Source: a virus
DNA length: 44,434 bases
Reading direction: 5' to 3' (one strand)
Virus record (IMG/VR): IMGVR_UViG_3300009128_000036
Coordinates: 1 to 44,434 of that record
Shown: piece after piece, positions 1-42,978 of the stretch
Numbering within the stretch: the stretch's first letter is position 1
Layout of the letters: the number at the start of each line of letters is the position of its first letter
Made by a program: the position numbers and the translations under genes
Notes under the pieces: generated by a model
Databases searched by the model: none
What the model saw: the letters and a program-made list of their open reading frames with translations, nothing else
What the model was told of the DNA's origin: nothing

Positions 1-125
1 GCATCCCAATCTGCTTCTATCTCAAGCAAATATTTATCAAGTTCTTCAGCAATGATTTGTTCTAAAAGAAGGCTCTTGACCTCTTCTAAAACAATCTGTC
101 GAAGTCTTGCTTCTGTGATGTTCAT
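1..125 (-). CDS. Small helical protein, N-terminal part only (runs off left edge)
   Basis: Only the first 41 codons are in the window; the gene continues past base 1. The ATG is at 125-123 and lies 1 nt downstream of the primase stop codon, so the two genes are probably co-translated from the primase mRNA. The visible peptide begins MNITEARLRQIVLEEVK and is rich in Glu, Leu and Ile, predicting an amphipathic helix. Short proteins opening with a similar 'ITxxxLRxIVxEE' motif are common in large marine phages, from memory, and have no assigned function. Nothing in the visible part indicates an enzyme. The coding call is supported by the tight spacing and same-strand context. Confidence 0.6.
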   Translation of the reverse strand, partial: MNITEARLRQIVLEEVKSLLLEQIIAEELDKYLLEIEADWD

Positions 126-126
126 A

Positions 127-1065
127 TTAAACCGCCGATAGTAAATCTAGCAGTAAATAGTTGTCTCTATCGATAAAGGACGCTTTATTCTTTCTTTCAA
201 AAAACACTTCTTTCGGCATTGAGCCTACATCTTCGTACCCAGAAATATCAATCTTGTAAAGTTCAATATCATATCGCAAAAGCATTTCAATGATCCTTCT
301 CTCTTTGTTGGCTGCGTCCGGATCAAGTGCGACGTAGATTGGGGTGTCGTTTCGTACAATCTTTCGTAATAAGTCGGATCCGGGTCGTAAGGTTGAGCCC
401 AATATAGGAACAGCATTTCCGGCGACCAATGCATCAAATACTCCTTCAACCAATACTAGGTCTCTATTCCAGTCAATATATAGGTCGTTAAACACTATAT
501 CCTTGGATGCTCTTGGGTTTTTATACTTATAGGAGTCCCCAGTATAGGATCTCGCGATAAAGTAGCTACAATCGCCATCTTCGTCAAAAGACGGTATAAT
601 GATTCGGTTGCGATATTCACCACTAAAACAAAAACCAATCTTCCACTTAATTATGTCTTCTTTTGTAAGTCCTCTTTTGAGTAAATATTTGAGGGCGTAA
701 GCACCTGTTGCTGGGACTTTGTTTGTGCAGAGTGTTGTGAATTCTTCTGGTAATTGTATTTTTTCACTCCTTGTTTCAGGCTCATGTTCATCAAAGAGTT
801 CATTAAACTTTTCCAAGTCTGTCCGAACTGTAATTTCGTCCCAGCGCTGGAGTTGTGTAAAAGAACCAAAACGCCTAATAACACGCCTAATATTACGACC
901 GCGATAATCACAAACCCAACACTTAAAAGCATTTTTATCCAAATTAATAGAGAACTTACGCTTGTGATGATTGCATGCAGGACACGTGAAAAGAAGTTCC
1001 TGTCCTTTGCCAATGTTGTTTCCAAACGTTTCATATAATATTCTCTTTGCTTCTTTCTTATTCAT
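127..1065 (-). CDS. DnaG-type DNA primase (zinc ribbon + Toprim)
   Basis: This 312-aa protein should synthesise RNA primers for lagging-strand replication in the infected cell. An N-terminal zinc ribbon is visible: C28-x2-C31 and C49-x2-C52 within the first 55 residues, matching the template-recognition domain of DnaG/T7 gp4 primases. A Toprim core follows, with the acidic motif VEGVFDA (E207, D211) and the DPD motif (D248, D250) that bind metal in this family. There is no helicase domain after it, so a separate helicase is expected elsewhere. It is shorter than bacterial DnaG (about 600 aa) but within phage range. The ATG at 1065 is preceded by GAGGG (1069-1073) and by a good sigma-70-type promoter at 1080-1108. 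It lies downstream of a terminator, so it starts a new transcript. Confidence 0.9.
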   Translation of the reverse strand: MNKKEAKRILYETFGNNIGKGQELLFTCPACNHHKRKFSINLDKNAFKCWVCDYRGRNIRRVIRRFGSFTQLQRWDEITVRTDLEKFNELFDEHEPETRSEKIQLPEEFTTLCTNKVPATGAYALKYLLKRGLTKEDIIKWKIGFCFSGEYRNRIIIPSFDEDGDCSYFIARSYTGDSYKYKNPRASKDIVFNDLYIDWNRDLVLVEGVFDALVAGNAVPILGSTLRPGSDLLRKIVRNDTPIYVALDPDAANKERRIIEMLLRYDIELYKIDISGYEDVGSMPKEVFFERKNKASFIDRDNYLLLDLLSAV

Positions 1066-1079
1066 ATGCCCTCAAAGCA

Positions 1080-1108
1080 AATTTATCATGAATCAATGTC
1101 CATGTCAA
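1080..1108 (-). promoter_or_regulatory. Sigma-70-like promoter for the primase gene
   Basis: Read on the minus strand, a perfect -35 box TTGACA (1108-1103) is followed by a 17-nt spacer and a -10 box TAAATT (1085-1080, 4 of 6 consensus). It starts about 3 nt after the terminator hairpin that ends the FKBP transcript. The predicted start near 1073 would leave only about 8 nt of leader before the primase ATG at 1065, and the GAGGG at 1069-1073 would sit at the extreme 5' end. This is unusual but consistent with a near-leaderless mRNA. The match is to host housekeeping sigma, not to a T4-type late promoter. Confidence 0.75.
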
Positions 1109-1110
1109 GT

Positions 1111-1135
1111 AAAAACCCCGCCGAAGCGGGGTTTT
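1111..1135 (-). terminator. Intrinsic terminator with UUCG tetraloop after the FKBP gene
   Basis: On the minus strand a perfect stem (AAAACCCCGC paired with GCGGGGTTTT) closes on a TTCG loop and ends in a run of five T. The C(UUCG)G loop is exceptionally stable. The hairpin begins about 5 nt after the FKBP stop codon (1142-1140). Because the stem is flanked by A and T tracts it could act in both directions, but no plus-strand gene approaches it. It isolates the FKBP transcript from the primase transcript. Confidence 0.9.
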
Positions 1136-1139
1136 AATT

Positions 1140-1718
1140 TTACTGTGCTTGTAAGGCGTCAATAATTTGGGCCTTAGTAGACTTTGTGTTGACCGGCAAG
1201 CCTCGCGACTTTGCAACTTCAAGAAGTTCAGACTTCTTCATACTAACACTCCAGTCAGTGAATGTAATATTGTCTTCGTCTGTTGCTAAGCCTTTAGTAA
1301 CGCTCATCAATTCGATCTCAAAAGTTAACTCTTCTCCGGCTAGCGGATGATTAAGGTTTAATACAACCTCGTCTTCTAAGATCTCGTGAATCTTGGCTAA
1401 AAAAGTCCCTTGGGGGCCATTTCCCTGAACTACCTCCCCTACCACAAAATCAAAACCATCACCAAAAGCTGATTTCGGTGCTGGACGAAGTGCGTCAGGG
1501 TTTATAGGTCCGTAGGCTTCTTCTGGGGAGAGTTGGACTACAGTCTTTTCCCCCTCGGTCATGCCGACGACGGCATTCTCAAAACCTTCAATCATGGTTC
1601 CGGTACCAAGATTAAAATTTAAAGTTTCGCCACGTGTGCGTGAGTTGTCAAATTCGGTACCATCAATCAAGGTACCTCTGTAATGGACACTAACTCTGTG
1701 TCCTGTTTCTGCTTTCAT
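1140..1718 (-). CDS. FKBP-type peptidyl-prolyl isomerase (SlyD-like) with SAP/HeH-like C-terminal helix pair
   Basis: The 192-aa product is a predicted cytoplasmic prolyl cis-trans isomerase and folding helper. Residues 1-65 give the FKBP half (VHYRGTLIDGTEFDNS, then GTGTMIEGFENAVVGM). Residues about 68-115 form an insert-in-flap chaperone domain (PEEAYG start). Residues 121-137 carry the SlyD hallmark NHPLAGEELTF. SlyD's His-rich metal tail is absent. Instead residues 159-190 (MKKSELLEVAKSRGLPV then TKAQIIDAL) form a SAP/HeH-like helix-extended-helix, often a nucleic-acid-binding element. The ATG at 1718 has AGGAG at 1725-1729, 6 nt upstream. The gene has its own promoter (1755-1783) and terminator (1111-1135). 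It lies between resolvase and primase, and its client protein is not apparent from context. Confidence 0.9.
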   Translation of the reverse strand: MKAETGHRVSVHYRGTLIDGTEFDNSRTRGETLNFNLGTGTMIEGFENAVVGMTEGEKTVVQLSPEEAYGPINPDALRPAPKSAFGDGFDFVVGEVVQGNGPQGTFLAKIHEILEDEVVLNLNHPLAGEELTFEIELMSVTKGLATDEDNITFTDWSVSMKKSELLEVAKSRGLPVNTKSTKAQIIDALQAQ

Positions 1719-1724
1719 TTTTAT

Positions 1725-1729
1725 CTCCT
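1725..1729 (-). promoter_or_regulatory. Ribosome binding site of the FKBP gene
   Basis: On the minus strand AGGAG lies 6 nt before the ATG at 1718, a strong Shine-Dalgarno at ideal spacing. It fixes the start codon and, with the promoter and terminator, completes a self-contained expression unit. Confidence 0.8.
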
Positions 1730-1754
1730 AGGTTGATGAAAGAACATCATGTGT

Positions 1755-1783
1755 AAGATAACACACAAAGATTTGTTTGTCAA
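1755..1783 (-). promoter_or_regulatory. Sigma-70-like promoter for the FKBP gene
   Basis: On the minus strand TTGACA (1783-1778) is separated by exactly 17 nt from TATCTT (1760-1755, 4 of 6 match to TATAAT). The -35 box contains the TGA stop codon of the upstream resolvase gene (1782-1780), so promoter and coding sequence share bases. The predicted start near 1748 leaves about 30 nt of leader containing the AGGAG site. No terminator separates it from the resolvase gene, so read-through transcription is also possible. Confidence 0.75.
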
Positions 1784-2337
1784 GAACATTCTGTGTTATA
1801 GCCGGCTTGGGCTATTATAATAGCATCTGCTCTATCGTAAGATTCTGGCTTAGGGTTTCCGTGCCTTGTATATTCAATTTTGAATGCTGGCTCGTTTTCT
1901 AATAGATGTTTTAATACTACTTGCTTAGCCTTTTGTCCGCGTGGGACTTTAATTCCAGCTAGCTTTCTAGCGGAGGTGGCGCCGAGAAATTTGGGCTTAA
2001 TTTCAAAAAGCTCATAAACAATCCAAGACACAATTCCATTAAATTTTTGCAATGTAGCCATAGTTTTAGCGGACGAACCGCCAGAATTAAAAAATGTAAA
2101 AGGCTGCTCAATATAAATATGTTCAATGGGATATTCAGAATTTCCAAGACGTCCTACATCTTCGTTGTTACACTGATACATTTCAAACAAATCTAGCAGC
2201 TTCTCTTTTATAGCTACAGTTTTATCAAACACATCTTTGTATTTTCTTAGATCAATTGAATCATAAAAAACTAATTGACCTTCAGCTACGATAGCAAAAC
2301 CAGTAATACTGGTGCTAATATCAATTCCCAAAACCAT
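1780..2337 (-). CDS. RuvC-type Holliday junction resolvase
   Basis: This 185-aa protein is a predicted crossover-junction endodeoxyribonuclease that would cleave four-way or branched DNA during recombination-dependent replication and packaging. The RNase-H-like fold is visible from the opening beta strand MVLGIDISTSITGFAIV. The four family acids can be placed as D6, E77 (IYIEQPF), D168 and D171 (YDRADAIIIA), the canonical D-E-D-D set, so it should be active. The start ATG at 2337 lies 1 nt after the stop of the zincin-like gene, with AGGG inside that gene as a likely ribosome site. Length is close to bacterial RuvC (about 170 aa). Confidence 0.85.
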   Translation of the reverse strand: MVLGIDISTSITGFAIVAEGQLVFYDSIDLRKYKDVFDKTVAIKEKLLDLFEMYQCNNEDVGRLGNSEYPIEHIYIEQPFTFFNSGGSSAKTMATLQKFNGIVSWIVYELFEIKPKFLGATSARKLAGIKVPRGQKAKQVVLKHLLENEPAFKIEYTRHGNPKPESYDRADAIIIAQAGYNTECS

Positions 2338-2338
2338 T

Positions 2339-2680
2339 TTAAACCCTATATTTTCGCCAACTATATGGTTTTCTATTATCTAAATAGCTCTCGTTGAACA
2401 TCTGAGCATATGCTTCTTGCTCAAAACGAATCCTGCGATATGCTAATTCTTTATCTCGGAACTTTATATACCCTCTCAGGTAATCCCAACCATATAACAT
2501 ATAAAAGAATACCACAAAAAGTTCTTTTTGTTGAGCAATATGTATGCTTTCGTGATTTAAAACATCCTCGGACATTTCTTCGCGAGCTATAATAAATGGA
2601 TATAATGTAATTGCACAGATGTCAACTACCCAAGAAATCGCTTTCAAAAATTTTGGAGCTATTATTAATATTGGCTTCAT
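2339..2680 (-). CDS. Small HExxH zincin-like putative metallopeptidase
   Basis: The 113-aa product contains NHESIHIAQQ, a HExxH zinc motif (H43, E44, H47). About 40 residues later comes FEQEAYAQ (E87, E89), a plausible third glutamate ligand, which is the gluzincin pattern. Hydrophobic stretches at about 10-31 and 53-66 (ELFVVFFYMLYGW) suggest membrane association. No dedicated partner is visible. Its start overlaps the stop of the 431-aa structural gene by 1 nt (TAATG), so translation is probably coupled. It could act on the host envelope or on a virion protein, but substrate and localisation are unknown. Peptidase activity is inferred only from the motif. Confidence 0.65.
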   Translation of the reverse strand: MKPILIIAPKFLKAISWVVDICAITLYPFIIAREEMSEDVLNHESIHIAQQKELFVVFFYMLYGWDYLRGYIKFRDKELAYRRIRFEQEAYAQMFNESYLDNRKPYSWRKYRV

Positions 2681-3975
2681 TATATGTCTATCTTCAATTT
2701 AAACGAATAATCGTCATCTTCATTTTTCAGTACTGGATTAGCTAAAGTTGCCACACCCATTAAGTTTTTATGTTCGTCATATATTGCAATTCTTGAAATA
2801 TACACTTGTCTTTTAAAATCAGCATTGTGCCCCATATAGCTTGACGATACTACATTAGCTATCAATTTATTTTCATTTTCCTGATAAACTTGGGACGAGG
2901 AAATCGCGATTTTCTTTTGTCCATATTTTATATATGACGGATTATTAGAATAATTCACTTCGCCCTTTTTGGCATGCGCAAACATGGTGACAACCTGTGT
3001 GTCTGTTTGTCCCCTAAAAGACAGATTAAAAGAAGCAGACACAAAATTTCCGCCGGCGGTCGTTTGATTAACACCATCTAGCGCGCCGGCTCCGAAATAG
3101 ATCCAGCGCGGCCTGTCGCTGGTTGTATCGCTTTTGATCGGAATGGAATCACCCTCAAGTTGCCAAGATCCTGTTAACAATAGGAAGCCTTCATCGTAAA
3201 GAACAACGCCGGCCACAGAACCTGAGCCAGTAGAGCCTGCGGGCCCGACTTGTACAAGTTCTCCATTTCGCTTTTCATCTCTAAGTTCGCCAACAAGTGA
3301 GCCTGTAAAATACCACTTGAGAGAAACTGTGCCGGGTTGCAACTGGGTGCCATAAAATATTGACGGTATGGAAACTAAGTTAATAATTTGGTTGTCTTTG
3401 TTCCAGTTCCAGTATACACCATCAGCGGCATCCATAGCGCCGCCTTGTGATTCTACTAGATAGTGACGACTTCGAGTCTCTCCATAAAAATTTAACCGGT
3501 TCTTCAAAGCAAAATAAAATGGATGAAGGGGGGCGCCGGTGGCTGTGCGGGTGCCCGTATTGGTGTCAACAACCGTATCTCTTTGACTAGGATTGGCCAT
3601 ATAATAACGGTGTATGGATGCTGACATTGGGTAGCTACTGGTTATAGTATCACCAAAGACGAATTCATTACTATAGCTAGCAGGACTAGCTGTTCTGAAG
3701 CTGGCGCCGGCGGAATCCTTTGTGATAAACGGATAAATTGACTTCGCGGTCGACGGCTTTGCAGGTGTGCCGCGGTCAATTACACGATCAATATTATACT
3801 CGTATAAACTTATGTGGCCTTCTGGAACATTATAAACGTCGTGCGATAAGACACCAGATTGTTCTGGTATGCTATTGTAAAATACACGACTATCAAATAT
3901 TAAAAACTCAACGCGAGGATGGGCTCGCATTGTGTTGATTATAATATCTTTGTCCGAGAACTTCTTTAGGGACAT
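2680..3975 (-). CDS. Structural (virion/tail) protein, 431 aa, shares C-terminal module with the next gene
   Basis: I do not recognise a named family. The protein is rich in Ser, Thr, Gly and beta-prone segments, as expected for a tail or fibre-associated protein. Residues 336-431 form a module also found at the end of the 374-aa protein encoded just upstream: YSNNPSYI, then YISRIAIYDEHKNLMGVATLANPVLK, ending in FKLKIDI. The paralogue has YSTNPTYV, ITTVGMYSAAGELLATAKLSEPLRK and LRVRLDY at the same places. The middle section (about 150-330) contains alternating hydrophobic strands with no catalytic motif. The ATG at 3975 follows AAGGGGGG. It is the last large structural gene before the replication genes. 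Confidence 0.75.
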   Translation of the reverse strand: MSLKKFSDKDIIINTMRAHPRVEFLIFDSRVFYNSIPEQSGVLSHDVYNVPEGHISLYEYNIDRVIDRGTPAKPSTAKSIYPFITKDSAGASFRTASPASYSNEFVFGDTITSSYPMSASIHRYYMANPSQRDTVVDTNTGTRTATGAPLHPFYFALKNRLNFYGETRSRHYLVESQGGAMDAADGVYWNWNKDNQIINLVSIPSIFYGTQLQPGTVSLKWYFTGSLVGELRDEKRNGELVQVGPAGSTGSGSVAGVVLYDEGFLLLTGSWQLEGDSIPIKSDTTSDRPRWIYFGAGALDGVNQTTAGGNFVSASFNLSFRGQTDTQVVTMFAHAKKGEVNYSNNPSYIKYGQKKIAISSSQVYQENENKLIANVVSSSYMGHNADFKRQVYISRIAIYDEHKNLMGVATLANPVLKNEDDDYSFKLKIDI

Positions 3976-5123: not shown

Positions 5124-6155
5124 TTATACTTTCCTTACTACTCTAATAGGTATGTGTGCTGTGACACCTGATGTTTTTCCAACTACGTACACAATGGTAT
5201 CAATATAATCGTATGTGTTTCCATCGCCAAAAAGATCTTGACCAACTTTACCATGTAGGGCATATTTTGCAGCACTATCCATAAGATCTGTGTGCGCGTA
5301 GAATCTCAGACTGGTTATAACACCGCTGGGGCCATTAATCATTGAGAAAAGATTCGCCTCGGTGCTACCGTCACTGCGGGCCGAGATTTGGGTAGTGACA
5401 GTGGGCACAATAGCCGTGCCGTAATTAGAAATTCCTATTCTGTTGGTGCCGGCCTTCGCTGTGCCACCAACCATCATTGTAATTTGTGCTTCACCTTCAG
5501 GGGGATAAAGCCACACAGATGTTGATGGTGAAGGGTGAGCAAGACTGGTTAGAAATCTTGTATCCATTGAAACATCCATGTTGTTGTCTATCAAATGTTG
5601 ATCTGAGAGATATGCTTGTTTGTTGACGCGGCCTTTTGTTCTCGGCGGATCAGCATTAATGGAATCAATGCCAGTCTCTACGTAGATGGCGGTATCCGCT
5701 CCGCCCGGGGCCTGATAATAACCAATACCGTTGCCGGCGCCGAAGTCATCATCCAATGCGGATCTGAGTGCGTCACCGGTGGCTGTATTGACCGCGATAT
5801 AATAGACGCTCCCGCTGGTTCTTTGGATTTGGGGTCCATCTACTGGGGCAGTCTTGTCCCAAACCTTTAATGTTGGCATGTAAAGCAAGTTCAAATTACC
5901 ATTGAAACTTACTAAACCATAGTTAATGTTTGCGTTTGATGAGGCGAAGGCCTCCAATACCGGTGTTTGCAAAATTTCTAAATCATAATATGCCGAACCG
6001 GACGGGTGGTTTTTGTTATAAATTCTATAATCAATTTCATCATCCCCTAAAGCAAATTGAGTAATTCTAAAATTACCTTCTGCCATTCTTTTGCGACCTA
6101 AATCTGTTAAAACTGCATCGAGAACAATGTCTCCGCTGTTGTCTAAAAAAGCCAT
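5124..6155 (-). CDS. Structural protein, 343 aa, with 'LTxxGR...GDDEIDY' N-terminal module
   Basis: The first 45 residues (FLDNSGDIVLDAVLTDLGRK, then GNFRITQFALGDDEIDY) match a module that recurs in virion proteins of large marine myoviruses, as I remember them. The same module, more diverged, opens the 352-aa protein at 14998-16056. The rest is beta-rich with Gly/Ser/Thr and no catalytic signature, ending in IPIRVVRKV. Preceding the ATG is AGGAGAGAGG, a long purine-rich ribosome site. It sits in the tail/fibre cluster, so a tail or baseplate-peripheral role is likely. Confidence 0.75.
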   Translation of the reverse strand: MAFLDNSGDIVLDAVLTDLGRKRMAEGNFRITQFALGDDEIDYRIYNKNHPSGSAYYDLEILQTPVLEAFASSNANINYGLVSFNGNLNLLYMPTLKVWDKTAPVDGPQIQRTSGSVYYIAVNTATGDALRSALDDDFGAGNGIGYYQAPGGADTAIYVETGIDSINADPPRTKGRVNKQAYLSDQHLIDNNMDVSMDTRFLTSLAHPSPSTSVWLYPPEGEAQITMMVGGTAKAGTNRIGISNYGTAIVPTVTTQISARSDGSTEANLFSMINGPSGVITSLRFYAHTDLMDSAAKYALHGKVGQDLFGDGNTYDYIDTIVYVVGKTSGVTAHIPIRVVRKV

Positions 6156-16132: not shown

Positions 16133-19100
16133 TCATGAGACGTCTTCGGGAGAGCCGGGTGGTGGTGGGGGTGCTCCTCCGGGGGCTGGGAGAGCAATCG
16201 GGGATATTTTGAAGGCTGCAGCTGCAATCTCGGCGTTGCGCGGGCTGGAGTATACTTGTGGTAGTGTTTGGGCCGTCTTCTTGATGAGTTCCAAGGGGTC
16301 GGTTGATGCCGGCAATGCTGGTGGGAGAGTGGCAGGAGAGGTTGTTTCTCTAATCAAAGATTTGCCCCTATTTGATTCATCATCAAACAATATCTCAATA
16401 TCAACCTTAATGCCCTCGACAATTGACACAAAGTCGTAAGGCCAGTTATATTGCACTTCGTATGCTTGCACTGGGGGCTGGGCTGGTTCGGCTTCACCGG
16501 GGGCGCCGGTTGTGCCCGTTTCTTCCTCGGCAGTGTTTGCGCCGGCGCCTCCTCCGCCGCCTGCGGCCAAAGCGAGGTGGCCACCGGGCTCCTCGCCGAT
16601 TACAATGCCACCGCCGGCCCACTTACTTCTACGGGCGCCTAAATTACCAACAAATGTTACTCCTGTGACCTTAGCCATTGATTCGCCGGCTTGTTCTAAT
16701 ACATGATTGTAATAGTCTCCAACGGCCTTTTGTTTGACCTTGAATGCCATGAAGCGTACATCAGGTGTATCAACTATTTGACCATCCATCGGCATGGTAC
16801 CCATAAGATGACTGGCATTTAATAATTCACTGGTATCTAGGTTGTGCGCAATTGATTGTTCTTCAAAATAAATACGCTTGTACTTTCTTGGCGCGAGGTT
16901 CTGCCACATGTATGATAAATCATCTTTGCTAAATCTCTGACTAAACTCAAATATATACATAACAATAGGGGTAGTTTCTGGATTTCTAAGAAAGTCAAAT
17001 TCTGGTGGCAGTATATATTTATCCATTTTGGCAATGAGTTTTCTTATTGATTCGCCGGCGACATCTAAATTGGCGCCTGTTGCAGTTTGGGAATTGGCAG
17101 TAATGGCTGCCTGAACCGCATGTGGCGGAATACCAAAGAATTGTTTAGAAACATTCAAAGCATTATCATCAGCCTGCTCAGGGTGAGTTGAAAGCGTGGC
17201 ATCAAATTCTTTGGTTGTTATATATGGAATCAATACGACCGCCTCTTTAATTGTTCTCTTGCTCGCGAGGTTACCAAGTCTTGTTCGTTGTCTTGTGGAA
17301 TCAAATCCGAAAAGTTTGGTAAGTGATCTCATTCTATGCTTGACTTGGTTACCAAAAGACATTGGGTCATCGCTGTTGCCGCCGGCGTCAGCCGCTTGTG
17401 AAGCGCGCATTTTATTATATACAGACGGCTCATTAACAACTTTATAGTGATTTGTTAGCCATTGCTTTGGAATATCACCAATTTCCATAAATATCCCTTT
17501 ACGTTTATCAGGTTCAATAATTCCAAATTGATGCCACATTCCGCGAGCAACTGCGCCCGAGCCAAATGTTGGCAACGTAAGGCTACCTGAAGCTGCTGAA
17601 ACGGCTCTTACGTCAGAATTGAAGTTCAACATTGGTGTTTCGAACTTAGGCTTAATAACCCAACGCATGGCTTTGGTCTCGTTACGAGTTTCAGATAGAA
17701 GCTCAAGAGCATCGTTGGCTTCGAAAGGTACTCTCTCAATGCCGAACAGGTTCACGCTGGCTGTGAGTTGCATCGCATGATCGTTGATAACACGGCCACC
17801 AAAAATATAACTACGATTGTTGCCGCCGCCTTTATAATCATCAATAATAGCCGGGGTGGTGCGGGTCGTATGTAATCGAGTATAGACTTCTGGGCCGGGG
17901 TCGACGCGCCAATACACTACTTCAGATCTTCTTAAAATCTCATCTGCTGTGTATTTTTTTGTTTCATCTGGATAGAATAATATATCAGCCCAAGCTTCGC
18001 CATGGTAATAAGGTGGAGTAAACGACCAGTTGTGGCCGGTCCAGCAATCTAAATTACCCGACATGGTTCCGCTCATTGCATCATCCGTGCTCGGCATGCC
18101 GTCCGCGCTGGAAAAGTCGGTGGCAACAGGGGGCCCAAACGCTGTTGTACGACTATACATAGTAAAATTTTCGCGTTGTTGTGAGCCGCTGGTATTATAT
18201 GGGTCTTGGGGGAGAGGGTAGGTCGCGCCCGCAAACCTTACATCCAAGTTGCCGGAATTCCATACTAAGCGGCGGCCTCCGTTTGTTCCCAAAGAACAAG
18301 AAGCTATATGGCGAGCGGCAGTGGAATAACCGTCAGTGAGACCTCCTTGGCCAGCGACACCCCAACGATAACCAAATGAAGTAAAATTGAAGCTATAATC
18401 TCTGGAGCCAGTCATAGAGCGTCGTAACTTAATGCGGGCACCGTACATTGAACCACTTGGCACTAATATACCCTCATGAGGGATTTCTCGCGATTTCAGG
18501 GATGAATAGTCACCGCCTTGAAGATAGAAGTTAGCAGTCTCTCCAAAAAAGTTTCTAGCCATTAATTCATACTGTGGGTTTCCGTTGGCCGTAGCCAGCG
18601 AGGCTGTATAAGGCAGTGTGCCAGATGGATGAGGGTTATTGTCAGCAATGGTTATCCCCAATAGGTGTTCTTCTGGTTTCACGGCGGCCTCAAAAGGCAG
18701 TCGCTCATCCCAAAAAGTTGTGCCCGGGCCCCATGCGGATGAATCCGCTTGGTCATCATCAGTCATAGCGCCATCCTGAAAACCAGCATAGACATGACAA
18801 GCTTCGCCATATAGGGAGTGATCTCGGCCGGCATCTGCTAGTGAAAATGCAGCGCGCATATTCGGTTTTCTAATTCCGCCATGCAAGATGGGATAGTCAA
18901 CAGCCATGCCCGACTTAATTGCATTGTGAACAATACCGGGACTGAACATTGCTTGCATAATTGGGCGGGTCAAACCACCGACGGCGGTCTTATCCAGATG
19001 TGAAAGATCAACTGTATTAACAGTATTGGAGGAAATAAAAGAATAAGTTGTGGTAATGGTTGGAAAATACGTTTCTGCAAATTGAGCAGAAAGGTCAACA

Positions 19101-22100
19101 GTGCGCTGGGCAGGATAAAACCCCTTATAAGGGTTGAATTTTTTAACTGCGGCGACTGTAATTCTAATCTCTTTTGGAGTCATGGTGGTCTTGGCATTTA
19201 TTGCCCGGGCATACATTAGTTTTTCTGAGTTTGTGTAATCCCTGTAGAATGATGAGGTTACTGCCCTCATTGCTGTTCCGGGGATCTCAAGATAATCCTT
19301 AAATTTTGACCAATGGTTTGTCAACAATTCTGGCACGTGCTCGCTCATTCTAAATTCAGGCACAATAGCATAGTCTTTAGCCAATATTCGTATTTCATCA
19401 CGAAAATCTTGATAATTGTCGTACCATGGCTTAGACTTGTATGATTTGAACACTGGATGGAGTTTCATGTCCAGCGATCTAGACATTTGGATGATCCCTG
19501 CTTGCTCACCAGCTTCCCAGTGAGCTTCGCCACAACCAACATCAACCACTCCGTTCGTCCATGGGCCTATTGAAGACGAGCCGAGGGGCAATCCAACCCC
19601 ATAGGATGGAATAGAACCAGTTTCAGGAATCAGCATTCCCGATGGGCCTACAACAGATTTAACATGCGCCAGCATGTGCTTTCTTGCATATAACGCTCCG
19701 GGTGCAATTGTATTCGGCGCGGTGAGCCATGTCATGAAGCCACCAGGGTACGTCTTGCGGGCCGCGTCGTAGTAAAATTGAGTATAATTATTTTGAAGTT
19801 CGCCGGCTTTTCCTAATGAGCGTAAGCCACCGTAGTAAGCTCCAACCGCTGTGGTTGGGCCGTGGTTGGGCTGATATTGAGACGCTGTATATTCATTGAT
19901 CTGGTTGTCAACTGATGCCGTTCTAGTTAAAAAGTCTTCTTGGGCATCCAATGGCCATGCGCTTTGACTAACAATAGCTAGACACGAATTTAACATCGTG
20001 TTACCAAGCGTTACACGTTCAGTTTGTAAATCACGCCAGAACAAGTTGTCATAATTCGTTCTTCTTCTCGATGATGAAACGAACTCCATTCGCTGTGATG
20101 GGAAAATATTTTCTTTATATATCAGATAATTTGGATCTGCCCAGCGGGCCTCTACACTGTCCATGGTGGCCAGAACATAATCAAAAGGTGTTAATATTTC
20201 ATGTGGATCTATATCGGCGAATGTATTTAAACCATTGGAATTAAAGAATATTTTATTATTATTATCTGTCGCCCTTAAAGTAACTGAACGGCCCAAAGGC
20301 GCGGTGGCTTCTCCACACGGTAACGTATCCGTATTTGGTGTGTAGTTGATGATTGCTGGCCGGCCACGCATTGAAACCGGTGGAAGCGTGAAATTAGTTA
20401 TAGCTTTTGTTCTTTCTTGTCCAATTATTTGATGATACGGATTCCAATGTAAAGGAGAGAGGACCAATGCACCCTGCCACACGTCTCTTTCGGCATAAGT
20501 TATAACTGAAAGTTCGCTTGATGACCTTTCGTTACGCAACACAGGATGGTTGGGGTTGCGACGGAATTGAGCATGTGTTCCATATCCGTACGGGCCGTTT
20601 CGTTTAAGCATCAAAGTGTTGAAAAGATAGCCATGGGCTTGTGTGGAGGCCCAGTATTTAAGGCCGGAACCGAGACCCGAAGAACTAACTGTTCCGTGGA
20701 ACCACCCAACATAACCAGTTTTAACCTTGTTTCTATATTGCCCGTCGGTCGGAAGAGTGTTAGATTGATCAAAAAGTGGCACAGCAAAGGGGTATCCCAA
20801 TATATTTGTCGAAGAAGATATGGGTTCATATATTATTGTATTGAGGCCGGCAAAATCTTGCGGCGTCCAGTCTTTTGATATATCTGAATTTTGTTCGGCC
20901 CATTTTTTTGGTGCACCATATGCCTGCTGGTCATCCCAATCGTTATCAAAAACTCCAAAATCGCTAGCTGAGATCATGGTTAGCCATGGCTCCCAGCCAG
21001 AAGATGCAGAATAGCGACCCTGTTGCTCACCAAACAGTGGCATGTAGCCAGAATATCTAAAGTTGTGGTTACAAGGATCAGTGTGCTCCATGGCTCCTGT
21101 CATCCAAGCGTATTGACGATCCCCTCTGGGAATTGGGTGAAACTGGTTAAGGTTATCGTAATGATTTCCACAGGAATAAGTTGTAGATGAAGAGTAGCCA
21201 AGGACCGTCGCGACACAGCCGGTCATCGGGGTGGGATAAAGGCCACCTTCGGTGCCGTCGCTAAAACTTAGAGCGTTGTTTGTGGTAATGGAAGAATAAG
21301 CTACCGGAAACAAATGATTTTCTGCCCATCCATTCGAATTCCATACGGCGTTTGTACCCGAAATAAATACTTTCGGGTTGTTTGCCTTAACCACATCCGT
21401 TTGATTGCCTTCACCAAGCTTATACCAAGCGAACAGGCGCTCTTTGGCGAGGGGTTGAGTAAGATCATCCGAACCAGTAATATCACAGGGAACACCATCA
21501 TTGTAAAGTGCTCGAGTCTCTGAAGCGCTCAGGGCTACATCCCACAAGGTTATTTGATCCAAGGCGCCAGATAAAGCATTACCCTGAATTGAGGTTTTTG
21601 ATACGTCGTGGCCAAACCCTAGCACCGAATCGCTTTTTCTCGGCACGGAACTAAGCACACTGTAGGCTGATTCATCAATTTTTTGATCAAAATAGGCGTA
21701 TGGAGATGTACTCTCCACAACTCGCTGCACGACTGAATTAAATAATATTGTTGGGAAGCTAGGGCCGCTGACTCCGGCAGAAACAGGCAATCTGACCACA
21801 ACGTGGACCCACTCTCCGGCATTCATCCTAGCAGCTTGGGCGCCGTCGGTGGGTGTAGACGGGAGGCTGCTTGTAGTAGACACTTTCCATACCGCGCGGC
21901 GGTGGGAGCCACCGAAGCCGGATATATGATTTCTTGTTGCTACTTCTAAATTGAAGCTAGCAGAAACTTTTGAAATTTCAATGAACGGCTTTGAAGAGGC
22001 GCCATTCTTTCCGACAGTAAACAAACACGCACTTCCATTGGTTGGCGACATTCTAAACCATCCAGAAAATGTAAACCCTCTAGAACGAGCACCAGTCAAA

Positions 22101-25100
22101 AAGTTAGTACAGGATGCCGATGCTGCATTAAGCAACATGTGGCCGTAGTTAGCTGAATCTGTGAAATACAGGGCTTTATCATTTATCAAAGACGAGCCGG
22201 TAGTAACCGCATAATGTGTTTCTGAACCTTCTTTGGCGCGCCACAAATTATTTCTATGAACTCGGTGAAATGCTGGCTTTTCTTCATATGTGGCGCCCTG
22301 ATTGCTGGGTACTAATATAGAATCTCGGAAAAAACGTTCGGTATGGCGGGCGGCGTGTACAGTGTGCCCGAAATCATTGCCATGAATATCATAAACTCTA
22401 ATGCCATCTTCTTCGGCTGAGCCAGAAACAATCGGCGGACTTTGGAATGGACGCTTAACAGTTAAGTTTCTGTTATTCAACATGTTATAAACTGAAAATT
22501 CTCCAGATCGGAAGTCTTGATAACCCCTAGACATAACTTCAATGCCGCCGGGCGCACTAAATTTAGAAACAAACACTGAGTTATTAGTGGTTGCTTGGCC
22601 TCCTAGGGGTGTTGTGGTATATCCGAGGCCGCCTTGCAAGTAATCGGTGGAATAATCGCCACTCCAATCTGTATGTGGTTTGGCGCCTGATAAAATTATC
22701 GCTGAGCCAGTTTCATCATTGTAAACGCCATCTCGCGATCCGCGATGAATGTCCAGCAGTGTTCGCACCGATGTTGAGCTTGACATGTAGTCGCTTTTAA
22801 TTGTAGTTGGTAAGTTTGGCTGCTTTTCGATGAATTGTCTTGGATTAGACCAACCACCGTGGGCGTTAACTACTTCATAGTTATGGCTATAATTTCCAAG
22901 AATTGTGGAACCAGTGGTGTGGTGAATATTTCTAATGTTGACAGGACGTTTAGCCGTGAACCCTCTGTAATAGATAGCCTTCTGCGATGCAGTATGAGGG
23001 TATTGTCCCAACTCTTCTGGTGCATTAGCCAAGGGATAGTCCGGGCCCACCATACCGATCGCGCCAGATATGGGCGGATCGTCAGCTTTACCAAGAAGTA
23101 TTTTCCATGCTTCAGGTCTAGAATCCCATCGATCCAATCCACCTACACCACCAGCCATTCCGCTTATAGCATATGGCCAAGTGCCCGTGGAGGTGATAGT
23201 AATGTTGCCAACTGAATAATCAGGTGAATTAACAAAATTTGTTAAGCTGGCTGTACCATTTGATGTTATGCCTGCTTTAATTGTAAAGCCCGGATACGAA
23301 TTGATAGCGGCCACAAGATTTTCCATTGTATCGGTTGTGTCGCCGTCAATATCAGCATCTTCTGGGTTAGTGGGCGATGAGGTAAACGTGAAGTCTACAG
23401 ACGTACCACCATCATTTAATGTTAAGGTGTCGCCTTCATCCGGCAGCTCGTTCATCGAAACTTCACCAGTTGGGAAATTTGAACCAACCGTAACCTTGTT
23501 CACCTTTACGTGTCGTGATTGATGGCCACCTACGGCATAATTGGTAAACGGGCCTTGCATTGGCCTTTCCATGTCAGGGCCATATACATCATTATGTAAG
23601 TTGGTAATAATAACACCGGACATTACACGAGCATCCACATTCTTTTGATATCCGGCAGTAACGCTTCCGCTAATAATATTAAAGGGGAAGGAAATATCTG
23701 ATTTTATGTTTTTATAGCCTATTCCTTCTTCCCAGTCTCTACCATGTTGTACTTTAACTGTTCTCTTTACTTTATCATTAGGCTTAGAAAGTGGATCTTG
23801 TATATTTTTAAGTCTTACAGTTTCATCTTCTTCGCCATTAATACCATATACAGACGAAAACAATACGTTTTCTGGAACGTATGCGCCGGCATCTTGGTTA
23901 ACAGGTCCATGGGGGCGTGTGGCATTGTAGGTTAAGTCAATCTTCTTGTTTCTTTCAAAGTTTACGCCACCTTTAATCGGCATTACCGGTGAGGCTGTAC
24001 GATACACAGTAAGTTTATAAGGTTTTGATAGCTTGCGAATACGGAAAATAGAACCGCTGTGTACACCATTTGACAGAGTTGAGAGTATATTGAGTTTTTG
24101 GTTGTTGTCGTTCTCAATTGACATTCTCATATTGTCTCTTTCCGCATCGACATAGCTGTTACCGCTGCTGATATCAGACTTTTGTCTTTCCGCTCTCTCT
24201 TTCCACCATTGGGCGTTCAGCATTTGTTTAGAAGAGCCGGTTAGATCCGAGGATGGGTGATGATTAACTCTCCAGTTGTAAAGTCTTTCATTAATTCCCA
24301 TTATTGGAGTAATCGGATCATCAAGCCTAAACTCAATTGTTGGAAATTGTGACTTATACTTATTTCTTTCCAATACATGACTTTCAACAATATTCATTGT
24401 ATCGTCAGTAAATTTTGAAGAGGCAGGCATTAGCTGACCAATAATTTGAGAAATTGTATCATCAAACCATTGATAATATTCAATATATTTTTCAACGTCT
24501 GAAGTAGTAGATACCCTACGGAAAAATGCTTCTCTCAGTTTTTCTAATTTTTTATAACGAGCACGATATCTGTTGACTGGCTCGCCAATCATATTATTAA
24601 AATCTAGGGCTCCGGCAAAGAAATTTAGCATTTCATCTGAAATTGCTGCGTACATGCTTTTCTCTACCGTGTGATGATAGTTGGGGATTGTCTCTGTGAA
24701 TCCGAATGCGCGGTCATCCGAAGTCAAAATTTGAACCATGTCGGAAGATATTGGCGATTCGGGGTCCATAAACTTGAAAGTGTTGGTAAGAAATTCTCTT
24801 TGTACTTTGCTGGAGTTTACAGTAAACCCGTATCCCAAACCGGGATGTTTATATCTAGACAAGCCGCCAAGCCAACCGAGGGCGCGACGATCTTGAGCAG
24901 AGCCTGATGACATATCTAGTGTTAAAAATTGGCCGGATGCATCTGAACTCGTCACATCATTGAAGTTCCAGTCTAATGCCAGTGTGTTGATATTTAAAAG
25001 ATCTAAATTGTTTGAATTTGGATCCAACGGAGAAAGATGTTGAAAGGAGCCCGAAATACCGGCATTATCAATATCGTATATGTGTTGTTTTAGTGAATCT

Positions 25101-27757
25101 TCATCTAAAAATTTACCCCAATAGCGTGCATTGAACAGTCGTATATCAGTTGGGTGATTTACTGTACCTGAAAAGTTGGTTCTATTGGCGCCGGCATAAA
25201 AACGTTTTGAGCCGGACAAAAAGTGTTCAGCAGTAGTTCTGCTTACCGATGCTGTCAACACGAACTGATTTTCAATGTTGCCCAGCTTCGTATTTAAGCC
25301 TTGGAATATTAAATCATATGTGTAGCCGATGTCAGATCCGGATACAGTTTTTGTCATTCCAAATGTGCTTGGTTTGAGGCGTACTGACACATTCCAATCT
25401 GAATTATCATAAGCATCAAAAAATACACTGCTTGTTAGAATCGGGAAGGGGCCGGCATTCGGATTCAACCACGGGGTACTGCCGGCTGGATCATTCGGAT
25501 AGTATGACGATGAAAGCATGAAGAATGCATTTTTAGAATATCTCTCTTCTCTGACAATATATACTTGGAAATTGGCACTGTCATACACGTGCCAATTAGT
25601 GTTTGTGTCTTCGCCGGCTGAGGCGCTGTACATTCCGTAAAGTGATGACACCTCAAAGGAGCGGTCTACACTGTCATAGTCAGTTTGAAAAGATGGCACA
25701 GTAAAGTCAGCCTCTGCTGTAAATCCGTACGGATATTCGTAACCGAACTGGCCAGAGCCAGAAATATAGCCTCTAGTGGCGGATGTGTCGTCTGGGTCTT
25801 GGTATTGGAAGCATGTTGCATTAATGTGACTTGAAGTATTAAAATAAAGCGCTTTTTTGTTGACCAGCGTTTGTTCCAAACGAGGAGTCCGGGCATCTAG
25901 ATCATACACTGTATTGTCTACATAAGTTCTTACTTTTACTATGGTGTCATCTAAATTAAAACACCTTAAAACATTTTTAATTGTCTTTTCAGTACCCTTA
26001 GTTTTGTAAATGTTTGTTAAGTTATTATAAAGGTTCTGGTAGATCAGGTTTTTAGTATCGGTCAAATCTGCTTGAAATCTAAAATCATCTGTTTTGTTCG
26101 CGAATCTGCTTATTACTTTTGCATCAACGAACAATTGCGGCATATAAAGGCCCAGAGATTGAGGCAAATGTTCTGCAAACGGCAACGGAGTATATGACGC
26201 ACTTGTCATCTGCAGCTGCTTAAAAGTTGGAATAGCTTCTATTTGATTGTAAATTTTGTCAAAGTAGGCGCCAAGAATGTGGGCTAATAATTCAACATTT
26301 GTATTTCCGAGAGCCTCGTGCTCTTCTAAAATCCAACTTGGGACCAAGGTTTTTAAATTTGAAGTGTTGTTTCTATCGTGATAAGAGCCAGAATTGAAAA
26401 GACCTTGGCGCAAATTAACCACATCTGGATGCAAGGAGTAGATGATCGGATCTTTATACTCACTGGCGGCGGCCGAAGCCTCGACGAGGGCGGAACTTAA
26501 TGTTCTTGAGGGGGTGCCCGTCCAAGTACCATTGGTGATACGACCAGAATAGTCCAGCACGTTTTGGTCTAAATAACCATAGCCGGAATTTCCTTCATTA
26601 AATTTGTAATACACTCCTAAAGTTGTATTATAAATGTCTGTGTTTGTTCCGCCGCGGACCTGCGCGAACCAGTTTCGGCCGATCTCTTGTGCATTTCGGG
26701 CAGTCTTCCAAAATCTAAACTCATCTACTGAGCCTGTCAATGTATGAGTATTTGCTGTACGAGTACTGGCGGCTGCATCGGGCCTGAAAGGCACAGTTAT
26801 CAAGGCGCCTATTCGGGCCTTCATATCTTTTGATGGAATTTCTCCTATAGCTAAGTCCGAATTAACAACCGTATGGTTGAGGTATCCGTTAAGATAAAAA
26901 TTGGTTCTAAAATCAGAGCCAGAATTTTGAAATACGAAGGCATAGTGGTTCCAGTCATCTAGTGTGGTGGAAGTTATAGTTTGGCCGATTGGTTGTTGGA
27001 ATAATGTGCCGGATCCGGGCGCACCAGATGTCATAGAACCAGACTGAACTGTAAATAAGAATGGCGAAGTTGAAGAAGCGCTCAAAACTTCAATGGTCAT
27101 TCGCCCCATATCATGTGAGCCAGACGCGTTATCGTTCCACATATCAAACACAATTGAGTTGGCGTTGGCTCCGAGATCTTCAGCTTTTAACCAAAACTCA
27201 ACTGTAACGCCGCTATCAAAATTTGCTCTCAGATTTGATTGTCGTGAACCCGTGCCATAGTTGTCTGGAAGGCCTGCGGTTTCATATATATTTTTATCGT
27301 ACAGGTTCGCAGAATGTCTTTTGCTATCGTTGGGGTTATTGAATAATTGATTTACCGTATCATAGGTTACACCATGTGGGCCTCCCTTAAAATCAATATA
27401 AGAACTAGAATCAAAATTAGCATATCCATTGGTTCTCGGAAACAGATTATTGAAAATATATTTTTCAACATCTAATGATTTGTTGTAAAACTCATGCTGC
27501 TCGGCATCAGAACCATCATACGGATAATAGTCTACAATTCGCCCTAGGGCGCCGCTGTAATAATAGTAGGCGGAACCGAACTTGGCAAAATTTTCAGGCT
27601 TACCATAATCAATTTGCGGAACAAAAGTCTCTTGTTTGATAGAGAGTTGTTTCAAGTTTTCTTTTGATTCTATATCACTGAAAACATTTTTTTGATTAGT
27701 CTCGGCTAGATAATTTCTACTATTTTCAACAGAGCCAAAAAGCTTTTTAATACTCAT
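16133..27757 (-). CDS. Giant 3874-aa structural/adhesin-like protein with two LamG-like domains
   Basis: One uninterrupted 11.6-kb frame, a quarter of the window. Residues about 155-350 form a concanavalin/LamG-like domain (VTVEFWLKAEDLG, WNHYAFVFQNSG, SVDEFRFWKTARNAQEI). Residues about 1860-2060 form a second (FTFSGWFRMSPTN, WVHVVVRLPV, ALDQITLWDVALSASETRALY). Between them are a helical segment near 1025-1160 and a beta module near 1430-1535 (DTLTLNDGGTSVDFTFTS, NLVAAINSYPGFTI). The C-terminal about 250 residues (FDFLRNPETTPIVMYIFEF onward) look like another conserved domain. They are followed by Gly/Ala/Glu-rich and Pro-rich (GGAPPPPPG) linkers. Composition is Ser/Thr/Gly/Tyr-rich with no membrane helix. 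LamG folds usually bind glycans or ligands, so host recognition or virion decoration is the likely role. The start overlaps the 514-aa gene by 11 nt. Confidence 0.85.
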   Translation of the reverse strand: MSIKKLFGSVENSRNYLAETNQKNVFSDIESKENLKQLSIKQETFVPQIDYGKPENFAKFGSAYYYYSGALGRIVDYYPYDGSDAEQHEFYNKSLDVEKYIFNNLFPRTNGYANFDSSSYIDFKGGPHGVTYDTVNQLFNNPNDSKRHSANLYDKNIYETAGLPDNYGTGSRQSNLRANFDSGVTVEFWLKAEDLGANANSIVFDMWNDNASGSHDMGRMTIEVLSASSTSPFLFTVQSGSMTSGAPGSGTLFQQPIGQTITSTTLDDWNHYAFVFQNSGSDFRTNFYLNGYLNHTVVNSDLAIGEIPSKDMKARIGALITVPFRPDAAASTRTANTHTLTGSVDEFRFWKTARNAQEIGRNWFAQVRGGTNTDIYNTTLGVYYKFNEGNSGYGYLDQNVLDYSGRITNGTWTGTPSRTLSSALVEASAAASEYKDPIIYSLHPDVVNLRQGLFNSGSYHDRNNTSNLKTLVPSWILEEHEALGNTNVELLAHILGAYFDKIYNQIEAIPTFKQLQMTSASYTPLPFAEHLPQSLGLYMPQLFVDAKVISRFANKTDDFRFQADLTDTKNLIYQNLYNNLTNIYKTKGTEKTIKNVLRCFNLDDTIVKVRTYVDNTVYDLDARTPRLEQTLVNKKALYFNTSSHINATCFQYQDPDDTSATRGYISGSGQFGYEYPYGFTAEADFTVPSFQTDYDSVDRSFEVSSLYGMYSASAGEDTNTNWHVYDSANFQVYIVREERYSKNAFFMLSSSYYPNDPAGSTPWLNPNAGPFPILTSSVFFDAYDNSDWNVSVRLKPSTFGMTKTVSGSDIGYTYDLIFQGLNTKLGNIENQFVLTASVSRTTAEHFLSGSKRFYAGANRTNFSGTVNHPTDIRLFNARYWGKFLDEDSLKQHIYDIDNAGISGSFQHLSPLDPNSNNLDLLNINTLALDWNFNDVTSSDASGQFLTLDMSSGSAQDRRALGWLGGLSRYKHPGLGYGFTVNSSKVQREFLTNTFKFMDPESPISSDMVQILTSDDRAFGFTETIPNYHHTVEKSMYAAISDEMLNFFAGALDFNNMIGEPVNRYRARYKKLEKLREAFFRRVSTTSDVEKYIEYYQWFDDTISQIIGQLMPASSKFTDDTMNIVESHVLERNKYKSQFPTIEFRLDDPITPIMGINERLYNWRVNHHPSSDLTGSSKQMLNAQWWKERAERQKSDISSGNSYVDAERDNMRMSIENDNNQKLNILSTLSNGVHSGSIFRIRKLSKPYKLTVYRTASPVMPIKGGVNFERNKKIDLTYNATRPHGPVNQDAGAYVPENVLFSSVYGINGEEDETVRLKNIQDPLSKPNDKVKRTVKVQHGRDWEEGIGYKNIKSDISFPFNIISGSVTAGYQKNVDARVMSGVIITNLHNDVYGPDMERPMQGPFTNYAVGGHQSRHVKVNKVTVGSNFPTGEVSMNELPDEGDTLTLNDGGTSVDFTFTSSPTNPEDADIDGDTTDTMENLVAAINSYPGFTIKAGITSNGTASLTNFVNSPDYSVGNITITSTGTWPYAISGMAGGVGGLDRWDSRPEAWKILLGKADDPPISGAIGMVGPDYPLANAPEELGQYPHTASQKAIYYRGFTAKRPVNIRNIHHTTGSTILGNYSHNYEVVNAHGGWSNPRQFIEKQPNLPTTIKSDYMSSSTSVRTLLDIHRGSRDGVYNDETGSAIILSGAKPHTDWSGDYSTDYLQGGLGYTTTPLGGQATTNNSVFVSKFSAPGGIEVMSRGYQDFRSGEFSVYNMLNNRNLTVKRPFQSPPIVSGSAEEDGIRVYDIHGNDFGHTVHAARHTERFFRDSILVPSNQGATYEEKPAFHRVHRNNLWRAKEGSETHYAVTTGSSLINDKALYFTDSANYGHMLLNAASASCTNFLTGARSRGFTFSGWFRMSPTNGSACLFTVGKNGASSKPFIEISKVSASFNLEVATRNHISGFGGSHRRAVWKVSTTSSLPSTPTDGAQAARMNAGEWVHVVVRLPVSAGVSGPSFPTILFNSVVQRVVESTSPYAYFDQKIDESAYSVLSSVPRKSDSVLGFGHDVSKTSIQGNALSGALDQITLWDVALSASETRALYNDGVPCDITGSDDLTQPLAKERLFAWYKLGEGNQTDVVKANNPKVFISGTNAVWNSNGWAENHLFPVAYSSITTNNALSFSDGTEGGLYPTPMTGCVATVLGYSSSTTYSCGNHYDNLNQFHPIPRGDRQYAWMTGAMEHTDPCNHNFRYSGYMPLFGEQQGRYSASSGWEPWLTMISASDFGVFDNDWDDQQAYGAPKKWAEQNSDISKDWTPQDFAGLNTIIYEPISSSTNILGYPFAVPLFDQSNTLPTDGQYRNKVKTGYVGWFHGTVSSSGLGSGLKYWASTQAHGYLFNTLMLKRNGPYGYGTHAQFRRNPNHPVLRNERSSSELSVITYAERDVWQGALVLSPLHWNPYHQIIGQERTKAITNFTLPPVSMRGRPAIINYTPNTDTLPCGEATAPLGRSVTLRATDNNNKIFFNSNGLNTFADIDPHEILTPFDYVLATMDSVEARWADPNYLIYKENIFPSQRMEFVSSSRRRTNYDNLFWRDLQTERVTLGNTMLNSCLAIVSQSAWPLDAQEDFLTRTASVDNQINEYTASQYQPNHGPTTAVGAYYGGLRSLGKAGELQNNYTQFYYDAARKTYPGGFMTWLTAPNTIAPGALYARKHMLAHVKSVVGPSGMLIPETGSIPSYGVGLPLGSSSIGPWTNGVVDVGCGEAHWEAGEQAGIIQMSRSLDMKLHPVFKSYKSKPWYDNYQDFRDEIRILAKDYAIVPEFRMSEHVPELLTNHWSKFKDYLEIPGTAMRAVTSSFYRDYTNSEKLMYARAINAKTTMTPKEIRITVAAVKKFNPYKGFYPAQRTVDLSAQFAETYFPTITTTYSFISSNTVNTVDLSHLDKTAVGGLTRPIMQAMFSPGIVHNAIKSGMAVDYPILHGGIRKPNMRAAFSLADAGRDHSLYGEACHVYAGFQDGAMTDDDQADSSAWGPGTTFWDERLPFEAAVKPEEHLLGITIADNNPHPSGTLPYTASLATANGNPQYELMARNFFGETANFYLQGGDYSSLKSREIPHEGILVPSGSMYGARIKLRRSMTGSRDYSFNFTSFGYRWGVAGQGGLTDGYSTAARHIASCSLGTNGGRRLVWNSGNLDVRFAGATYPLPQDPYNTSGSQQRENFTMYSRTTAFGPPVATDFSSADGMPSTDDAMSGTMSGNLDCWTGHNWSFTPPYYHGEAWADILFYPDETKKYTADEILRRSEVVYWRVDPGPEVYTRLHTTRTTPAIIDDYKGGGNNRSYIFGGRVINDHAMQLTASVNLFGIERVPFEANDALELLSETRNETKAMRWVIKPKFETPMLNFNSDVRAVSAASGSLTLPTFGSGAVARGMWHQFGIIEPDKRKGIFMEIGDIPKQWLTNHYKVVNEPSVYNKMRASQAADAGGNSDDPMSFGNQVKHRMRSLTKLFGFDSTRQRTRLGNLASKRTIKEAVVLIPYITTKEFDATLSTHPEQADDNALNVSKQFFGIPPHAVQAAITANSQTATGANLDVAGESIRKLIAKMDKYILPPEFDFLRNPETTPIVMYIFEFSQRFSKDDLSYMWQNLAPRKYKRIYFEEQSIAHNLDTSELLNASHLMGTMPMDGQIVDTPDVRFMAFKVKQKAVGDYYNHVLEQAGESMAKVTGVTFVGNLGARRSKWAGGGIVIGEEPGGHLALAAGGGGGAGANTAEEETGTTGAPGEAEPAQPPVQAYEVQYNWPYDFVSIVEGIKVDIEILFDDESNRGKSLIRETTSPATLPPALPASTDPLELIKKTAQTLPQVYSSPRNAEIAAAAFKISPIALPAPGGAPPPPPGSPEDVS

Positions 27758-42129: not shown

Positions 42130-42978
42130 TTAATTTTCCTCCGAAATTGCTCTACCTTTTAATTTTTCCCAGTCTCTCTCTGGGCGGACTTCTAAATTCT
42201 TTTGCCATGCTCCGGAGAGTACGGGTGTGTTGATGCCCATCTCTGAAGCATAATAAATTAATGCATTAATATCTTTAGGGAAACATGACCCTCCAAATCC
42301 AGCGTTGCCATCTGGGCCGGGTGATGAAAAGTGTGATTTTCCAAGTCTCTGATCATACAAAGCATATTCTACTACTTTATCATAATCTACATCAACTTTG
42401 TCGCATATTTGTTTAAATTCATTAGAAAAACTAACTTTAGTGGCCAAAAATGTATTAATAAAATACTTTACTGATTCTGCAGTATCTGAACCTGTTTTTA
42501 TAATTGGAACTTCTTGAAACACTTTTCTAAACATATTTTTAACAAGCGTGGAGGCAGGTCGTGGTCCCCCAATAATTATTCTGTTTTGATTTTTAAAATC
42601 ATCAATATAATTTGCTTCTGTTAAAAATTCTGGATTAAATACTATCTGAATGTTTTTGCAAGATTCATTAAATTTTGCGGTGGTTCCGGGAGGGATAGTT
42701 GATTTAATTACGACAATATTTTCTAGTTTATATCCGTTAATATCATCAATAACTTGCTGCAGTATTGATAAGTCACATGACCCATCTTTTTTCATTGGTG
42801 TTGGTAAGCAAACAAAAACTATTTTTGCTCTTTGGCACACATCTTTCATATCAGTGCAGCTGGATTTTTTCTCTAAAAATTTATCATAGGTGTGAACATT
42901 AAAATGTTCTCTGAGACCTTCATAAGTGGCAGTACCCACAAAACCCTGACCGATGATACCGATGTCACTAGTATTCAT
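42130..42978 (-). CDS. Short UDP-glucose/nucleotide-sugar 6-dehydrogenase
   Basis: The product should oxidise a nucleotide sugar (UDP-glucose or a relative) with NAD+ to a uronic acid. Motifs of the family are visible: Rossmann GIIGQGFVG (G10, G12, G15), the VCLPTP loop at about 56-61, KSTIPPGTT at about 92-100, NPEFLTEANYI (E118), and the catalytic cysteine C232 in GFGGSCFPKD. At 282 aa it stops soon after the central dimerisation domain. It lacks the C-terminal UDP-binding domain that brings typical enzymes to about 390-450 aa. Short versions of this enzyme are known in phages, so it may still be active. The ATG overlaps the epimerase stop (ATGA). Confidence 0.87.
   Translation of the reverse strand: MNTSDIGIIGQGFVGTATYEGLREHFNVHTYDKFLEKKSSCTDMKDVCQRAKIVFVCLPTPMKKDGSCDLSILQQVIDDINGYKLENIVVIKSTIPPGTTAKFNESCKNIQIVFNPEFLTEANYIDDFKNQNRIIIGGPRPASTLVKNMFRKVFQEVPIIKTGSDTAESVKYFINTFLATKVSFSNEFKQICDKVDVDYDKVVEYALYDQRLGKSHFSSPGPDGNAGFGGSCFPKDINALIYYASEMGINTPVLSGAWQKNLEVRPERDWEKLKGRAISEEN

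Follow-up and report, generated by a model that had tools for sequence, protein, structure and literature searches.

The window, by which we mean the complete 44,434-base virus record, encodes an FKBP-type prolyl isomerase between the genes for a RuvC-like Holliday-junction resolvase and a DnaG-like primase. The FKBP gene is the sole credible open reading frame in that interval (Table 1). Baseplate, endolysin and sugar-nucleotide genes are found farther up; those for UDP-glucose dehydrogenase and a sugar epimerase (42130-43853) lie near the endolysin gene (39148-40344), at the upstream end of the structural region. A single open reading frame of 3874 residues occupies positions 16133-27757. 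Two other proteins of the window, of 2176 and 1291 residues, had no PHROG family match, and no relatives of a 454-amino acid protein were found in described phages. The preliminary description of this DNA had assigned to the FKBP gene its own promoter, an AGGAG ribosome-binding site and a terminator with a UUCG loop, and all of them were found where it had placed them, with the resolvase stop codon falling within the -35 hexamer of the promoter. Its portrayal of the rest of the window as a dense overlapping operon was overstated, as seven gaps of 39-76 nt were present, among them the two on either side of the FKBP gene. The view that the unit is set inside one operon did not hold, since the primase gene behind it has its own promoter, conserved in 27 of the 30 FKBP-bearing relatives described below. 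The G+C content of the FKBP gene (44.6%) is only mildly different from those of its neighbors (36.2% and 38.8%) and of the window (41.7%).

Table 1. Features of the FKBP locus in the window, and slots with other cargo in relatives.
Feature	Position	Strand	Basis
RuvC-like Holliday-junction resolvase, upstream slot border	1780..2337	-	PHROG 159 E=2.8e-12, PHROG 827 1.1e-9
FKBP promoter, TTGACA (1783-1778)-N17-TATCTT (1760-1755), extended -10 TG	1755..1783	-	30/30 orthologues
CTTTCAT leader element (candidate), complementary to start ATGAAAG	1736..1742	-	TTTCAT in 28/30 leaders
AGGAG ribosome-binding site	1725..1729	-	Conserved
FKBP-type prolyl isomerase with SAP/HeH-like tail, 192 aa	1140..1718	-	Pfam FKBP_C, model, Foldseek
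FKBP domain with insert-in-flap, residues 1-142	1293..1718	-	Alignments; dN/dS 0.09 against L003
Disordered linker, residues 143-154	1257..1292	-	pLDDT <50 at 145-153
Helix-loop-helix SAP/Rho_N-like tail, residues 155-192	1143..1256	-	Profiles, model, Foldseek, dN/dS
Intrinsic terminator, stem of ~10 bp, UUCG loop, T run	1112..1135	-	Hairpin kept, stem changed, in L004 and L006
Primase promoter, TTGACA-N17-TAAATT	1080..1108	-	Primase promoter in 27/30 FKBP slots
DnaG-like primase, downstream slot border	127..1065	-	PHROG 47 E=5.2e-44; Pfam DNAG_N
Other-cargo slot in relative L092	5575-7016		Same resolvase-primase slot
Other-cargo slot in relative L073	4436-4921		Same resolvase-primase slot
Other-cargo slot in relative L063	4525-4971		Same resolvase-primase slot
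Slot with other cargo besides FKBP in relative L108	5640-7291		Same resolvase-primase slot

The 192-amino acid protein matched Pfam FKBP_C at 1.3e-22. Alignment with FKBPs showed that the active-site equivalents Y13, F23, D24, R29, I43, F46, Y69 and F133, which we take to be the positions that form the isomerase pocket, are kept. The predicted model had a mean pLDDT of 86.9, and Foldseek matched it to FKBP12-IF(SlpA), SlyD and SlpA at E about 1e-15. In NCBIfam the protein scored 75.7 bits with FkpB/SlpA (cut-off 125) and 55.6 bits with SlyD (cut-off 174), below both. Alignments and model together identify it as an insert-in-flap FKBP of the SlyD/FkpB kind, IF domain included. The metal-binding His/Cys-rich tail of SlyD is absent, as had been pointed out. 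The accompanying idea that this tail was replaced is misleading, since the FkpB model scores above that of SlyD and FkpB, to our knowledge, has no His-rich tail; with such relatives, the missing tail is no strong indication of a replacement. A tree of FKBPs built to find the donor of the gene was set aside, as too few columns were available to resolve it. The structure of SlyD in complex with the phage protein E was also among the Foldseek matches of the model; in the lysis caused by that protein, SlyD is known to act as a host factor.

Beyond the FKBP domain, a short linker leads to a C-terminal tail with the pattern W..SMKKxELLEVAKSRGLPVNTKSTKAQIIDAL, found in 22 of 30 orthologues located at the same place and missing from the other eight. 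Residues 159-190 matched Pfam SAP at 0.0029, with a PF02037 score (22.2 bits) just below the gathering cut-off (23.9 bits), and the SAP and Rho_N profiles matched 20 of 21 tails. Modelled alone, the tail formed two helices and a loop (pLDDT 87.6). Foldseek compared this model best with the C-terminus of T4 endonuclease VII and also with the SAP domain of Ku70 and the N-terminus of Rho, all at E of 0.3 or worse; no match at E<0.001 was obtained, as expected for 40 residues, and a PDB sequence search with the tail gave nothing useful. The C-terminal domains of CDNF/MANF were among the matches as well, and SAP-like folds also bind proteins. Profiles and model thus support a SAP/HeH-type fold, consisting of helix, extended loop and helix, and back the earlier proposal of a SAP/HeH-like C-terminus as a fold, not as a function. 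The dN/dS of the tail was 0.09-0.2 where computable. That of the linker was 0.84 against L003 and 1.3 against L008, values that rest on about eight synonymous sites or fewer. These rates indicate that the tail, like the FKBP domain, is under purifying selection and is carried on a fast-evolving linker. Its absence from 8/30 orthologues points to a module that is dispensable on an evolutionary scale. No convincing copy of the tail was found at 80 bacterial FKBP loci, and in nine related phage records it was found only on the FKBP.

On its flexible tether, the SAP/HeH-type tail would most likely concentrate the isomerase on nucleic acid or nucleoprotein, for example the replication machinery. 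Alternatively, the same cargo gene could encode a general folding factor for virion assembly, acting on the very large proteins (3874, 2176 and 1291 amino acids), with the tail serving as a protein-protein or self-association module. The region of T4 endonuclease VII that is the best structural match of the tail serves dimerisation, and one tail gave a weak match to the Pfam model for endonuclease VII dimerisation. A comparable module is present in a head-fibre family of phages, and in active lake phages a phage FKBP gene ranked among the 100 genes with the highest transcription (PMC9723584). However, the SAP and Rho_N profiles, which represent mostly nucleic-acid binders, match more tails and match them better, and similar tails end phage families of endonuclease VII-like proteins and Arc-like repressors. 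We consider this alternative rather unlikely.

The signals around the gene were assessed by conservation and strand bias because a consensus scan alone did not go beyond chance (75 promoter-like sites in 20 kb, 16 of them scoring at least 10/12, compared to 44.9 ± 5.9 in shuffles). Across the window, the combination TTGAC-N17 plus extended -10 has just two occurrences on the coding strand, at 1783 and 1108, and none on the opposite strand. TTGAC-N16/17-TAnnnT precedes the FKBP gene in 30/30 same-place orthologues, with a divergent spacer. In the five viral contigs compared at first, whose FKBP gene shows 60-100% identity, the -35, the extended -10 and the 17 bases of spacing are retained around a changed spacer sequence. 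The ratio of coding to opposite strand for such sites was 79:0 in 45.7 kb of slots versus 97:45 in 635 kb outside them. A terminator was recognized by the scan in 18 of the 30 FKBP slots, with none visible to it in 12, and the most distant of the five contigs, L006, retains the hairpin with a wholly different stem sequence. These conserved signals suggest that the host RNA polymerase with a housekeeping sigma factor most likely transcribes the FKBP gene alone, from a start near 1748 to a stop at the hairpin at 1112-1135. In longer records of relatives, about 5-12 such promoters were counted per record, nearly all of them on a single strand. The FKBP unit is therefore not alone but belongs to a set of several units with independent starts.

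The leader holds a further candidate element. TTTCAT lies about 14-20 bases 5′ of the start codon in 28/30 leaders, can pair with the start ATGAAA, and is absent from the leaders behind 20 other promoters examined. At least six pairs between leader and start are possible in 28 of 30 cases, compared to seven expected from shuffles, and in 31% of control genes. A hairpin that sequesters the start codon is a suggestion only and was not adopted, because the control genes pair too and TTTCAT stayed in L042, L050, L135 and L091, where the start had changed; the sole double change, in L013, concerns one pair. This covariation is too thin for calling TTTCAT a switch. An alternative upstream hairpin, GATGA/TCATC, competes in the leaders of L004, L005, L008, L043, L045, L047 and L108, and L128 has a GATGC/GCATC version of it. 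A search of positions 1-3000 of the window against Rfam returned no family above the gathering score.

The junction between the resolvase and primase genes was compared across relatives, using contigs found by short conserved patterns and junctions collected by searches with FKBP, primase and resolvase alignments. Among 81 distinct junctions, 34 were empty, 30 had the FKBP gene, always next to the resolvase, and 17 had other cargo only. In 27 of the empty ones the two genes overlap by 25-61 bases, and in the other seven they are 21-41 bases apart. Cargo other than FKBP includes UvdE (Pfam 2.6e-59), Hsp20 (1.7e-20), a fatty-acid hydroxylase (about 1e-10) and several small uncharacterised proteins. 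A quick tree of resolvase plus primase, without bootstrap, placed every FKBP-bearing slot within a group of 51 and most overlapping junctions outside it, and required four changes between presence and absence of FKBP. The most economical reading of this tree is a single gain in the ancestor of the large clade, followed by several losses or replacements; the FKBP cargo would thus be old and mostly vertically kept. Five of the seven non-overlapping empty junctions (L049, L053, L060, L072 and L075, with gaps of 27-41 bases) keep a TTGAC primase promoter, which is found in 0/27 overlapping junctions. These five lie inside the cargo-bearing clade, and their promoter and gap are likely the scar of lost cargo.

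Several other observations were made at and around these slots. In L012 and L132 a short, strongly basic ORF (about 30 residues) lies between FKBP and primase, with the sequence MSRKAPHSKARRRRKLGSKRRRNRRLRKKK in L012. At the same place L087 has an ORF (5135-5767) that, on inspection by eye, resembles GIY-YIG homing endonucleases; such an enzyme could be an agent of exchange at the slot. Insert-in-flap FKBPs with no tail are also encoded in 19 other viral contigs (L015-L033), and no such resolvase or primase neighbor was present in the available stretches of 4-12 kb.

A moron has been defined as a single gene with its own promoter and terminator located between genes that are adjacent in relatives (PMC4378225); further marks are a nucleotide composition that sets it apart from neighboring genes and independent expression, during lysogeny in temperate phages. 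The FKBP gene had been proposed to be one, and the comparison bears this out: the flanking genes are adjacent or overlapping in 34/81 related junctions and are parted by other cargo in 17. The decisive point is this comparison of empty, FKBP and other-cargo states at one junction. At the level of sequence, it is well supported that the junction is a cargo slot and that the FKBP gene agrees with the definition. The unit resembles the morons of, for example, lambdoid or Mu-like phages in being a single gene with its own signals and with flanks adjacent in relatives. It differs from them in its age and its retention across most of one clade, in a composition that is only mildly different, in its location within a replication module and in that the core gene downstream also has its own promoter. 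Another reading makes the FKBP gene no cargo but a regular core gene of the lineage, distinguished only by a promoter of its own; the gene is old, no close relative lacks it, and such promoters also precede several further genes of these phages. That reading is largely refuted by relatives in which the same flanking genes enclose nothing (34 junctions) or other cargo (17); we rejected it as very unlikely.

Taken together, the FKBP gene would be an autonomous cargo gene, or moron, in a variable resolvase-primase slot of an uncultured phage group, of which several contigs measure about 190-200 kb. Sequence and model show that the insert-in-flap FKBP keeps both the prolyl-isomerase pocket and the chaperone flap, and it most likely speeds or protects the folding of abundantly made phage proteins. 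We consider it probable that the best explanation of the locus is an autonomous cargo FKBP that folds phage proteins, with a tail that concentrates the enzyme on nucleic acid or nucleoprotein. Because the tail-less orthologues share the slot and the promoter, folding would be the function common to all, with targeting by the tail as an optional addition. In L108 the slot contains Hsp20 as well as FKBP, and the length and start of an ORF point to the same pairing in L013 and L043; this sharing fits a role in proteostasis. An FKBP that isomerises a host protein, as a conversion or counter-defence factor, would agree with the moron position, with the host-type promoter and with the action of some morons on the host (PMC4378225), but no defence gene was recognized in the slot and we regard such a role as extremely improbable. 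A broader proposal is that the slot is a dedicated exchange site for self-contained stress or proteostasis units (FKBP-SAP, Hsp20, UvdE and lipid hydroxylase), with FKBP-SAP tethered to the phage replisome or nucleoid and its translation further controlled by the TTTCAT leader; we think this unlikely and put it forward as speculation. The overlapping genes, the filled slot and the emptied slot with its leftover promoter form an unusually clean natural series for following how cargo is acquired, insulated and lost by a phage within an essential module.

The phage protein shares with FkpB/SlpA and SlyD the fold, the flap insert and the pocket. It differs from them in being phage-encoded, in scoring below both family cut-offs and in its additional C-terminal SAP-like module. 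An FKBP joined to a module that directs it to chromatin or ribonucleoprotein is known from human FKBP25 and yeast Fpr4 (PMC4496705, PMC3958658). These resemble the phage protein in the combination of FKBP and a nucleic-acid- or chromatin-type module, but they are eukaryotic and their extra domain is a different one, at the N-terminus. The C-terminal region of T4 endonuclease VII, the SAP domain of Ku70 and the N-terminal domain of Rho are alike in the predicted fold of the tail; there the module is carried by nucleases, repair and termination factors, whereas here it is carried by a prolyl isomerase. No described phage was found to encode a compact FKBP with a SAP-like module fused to it, and within the open-licence literature no paper joined FKBP, SAP domain and phage in such a sense. 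The fusion raises the question of whether phages recruit prolyl isomerases to their own nucleoprotein complexes. Large phages also encode folding help in the form of Hsp20, HSP60, HSP10 and DnaJ, the first of which shares the slot described here; the survey of 224 jumbo phages that covers them makes no mention of FKBP or prolyl isomerases (PMC7824862). FKBP genes in phages are thus known but little noted. Prolyl isomerases had been called rare in phages, which is true of described phages (16 of 50,697 records matched, 11 of them resembling bacterial contigs), but the family is common in uncultured ones. These 11, entered under phage names (Acinetobacter phage MD-2021a, Salmonella and pieces of Escherichia phage ECO95), contain fkpB, slyD and fklB.
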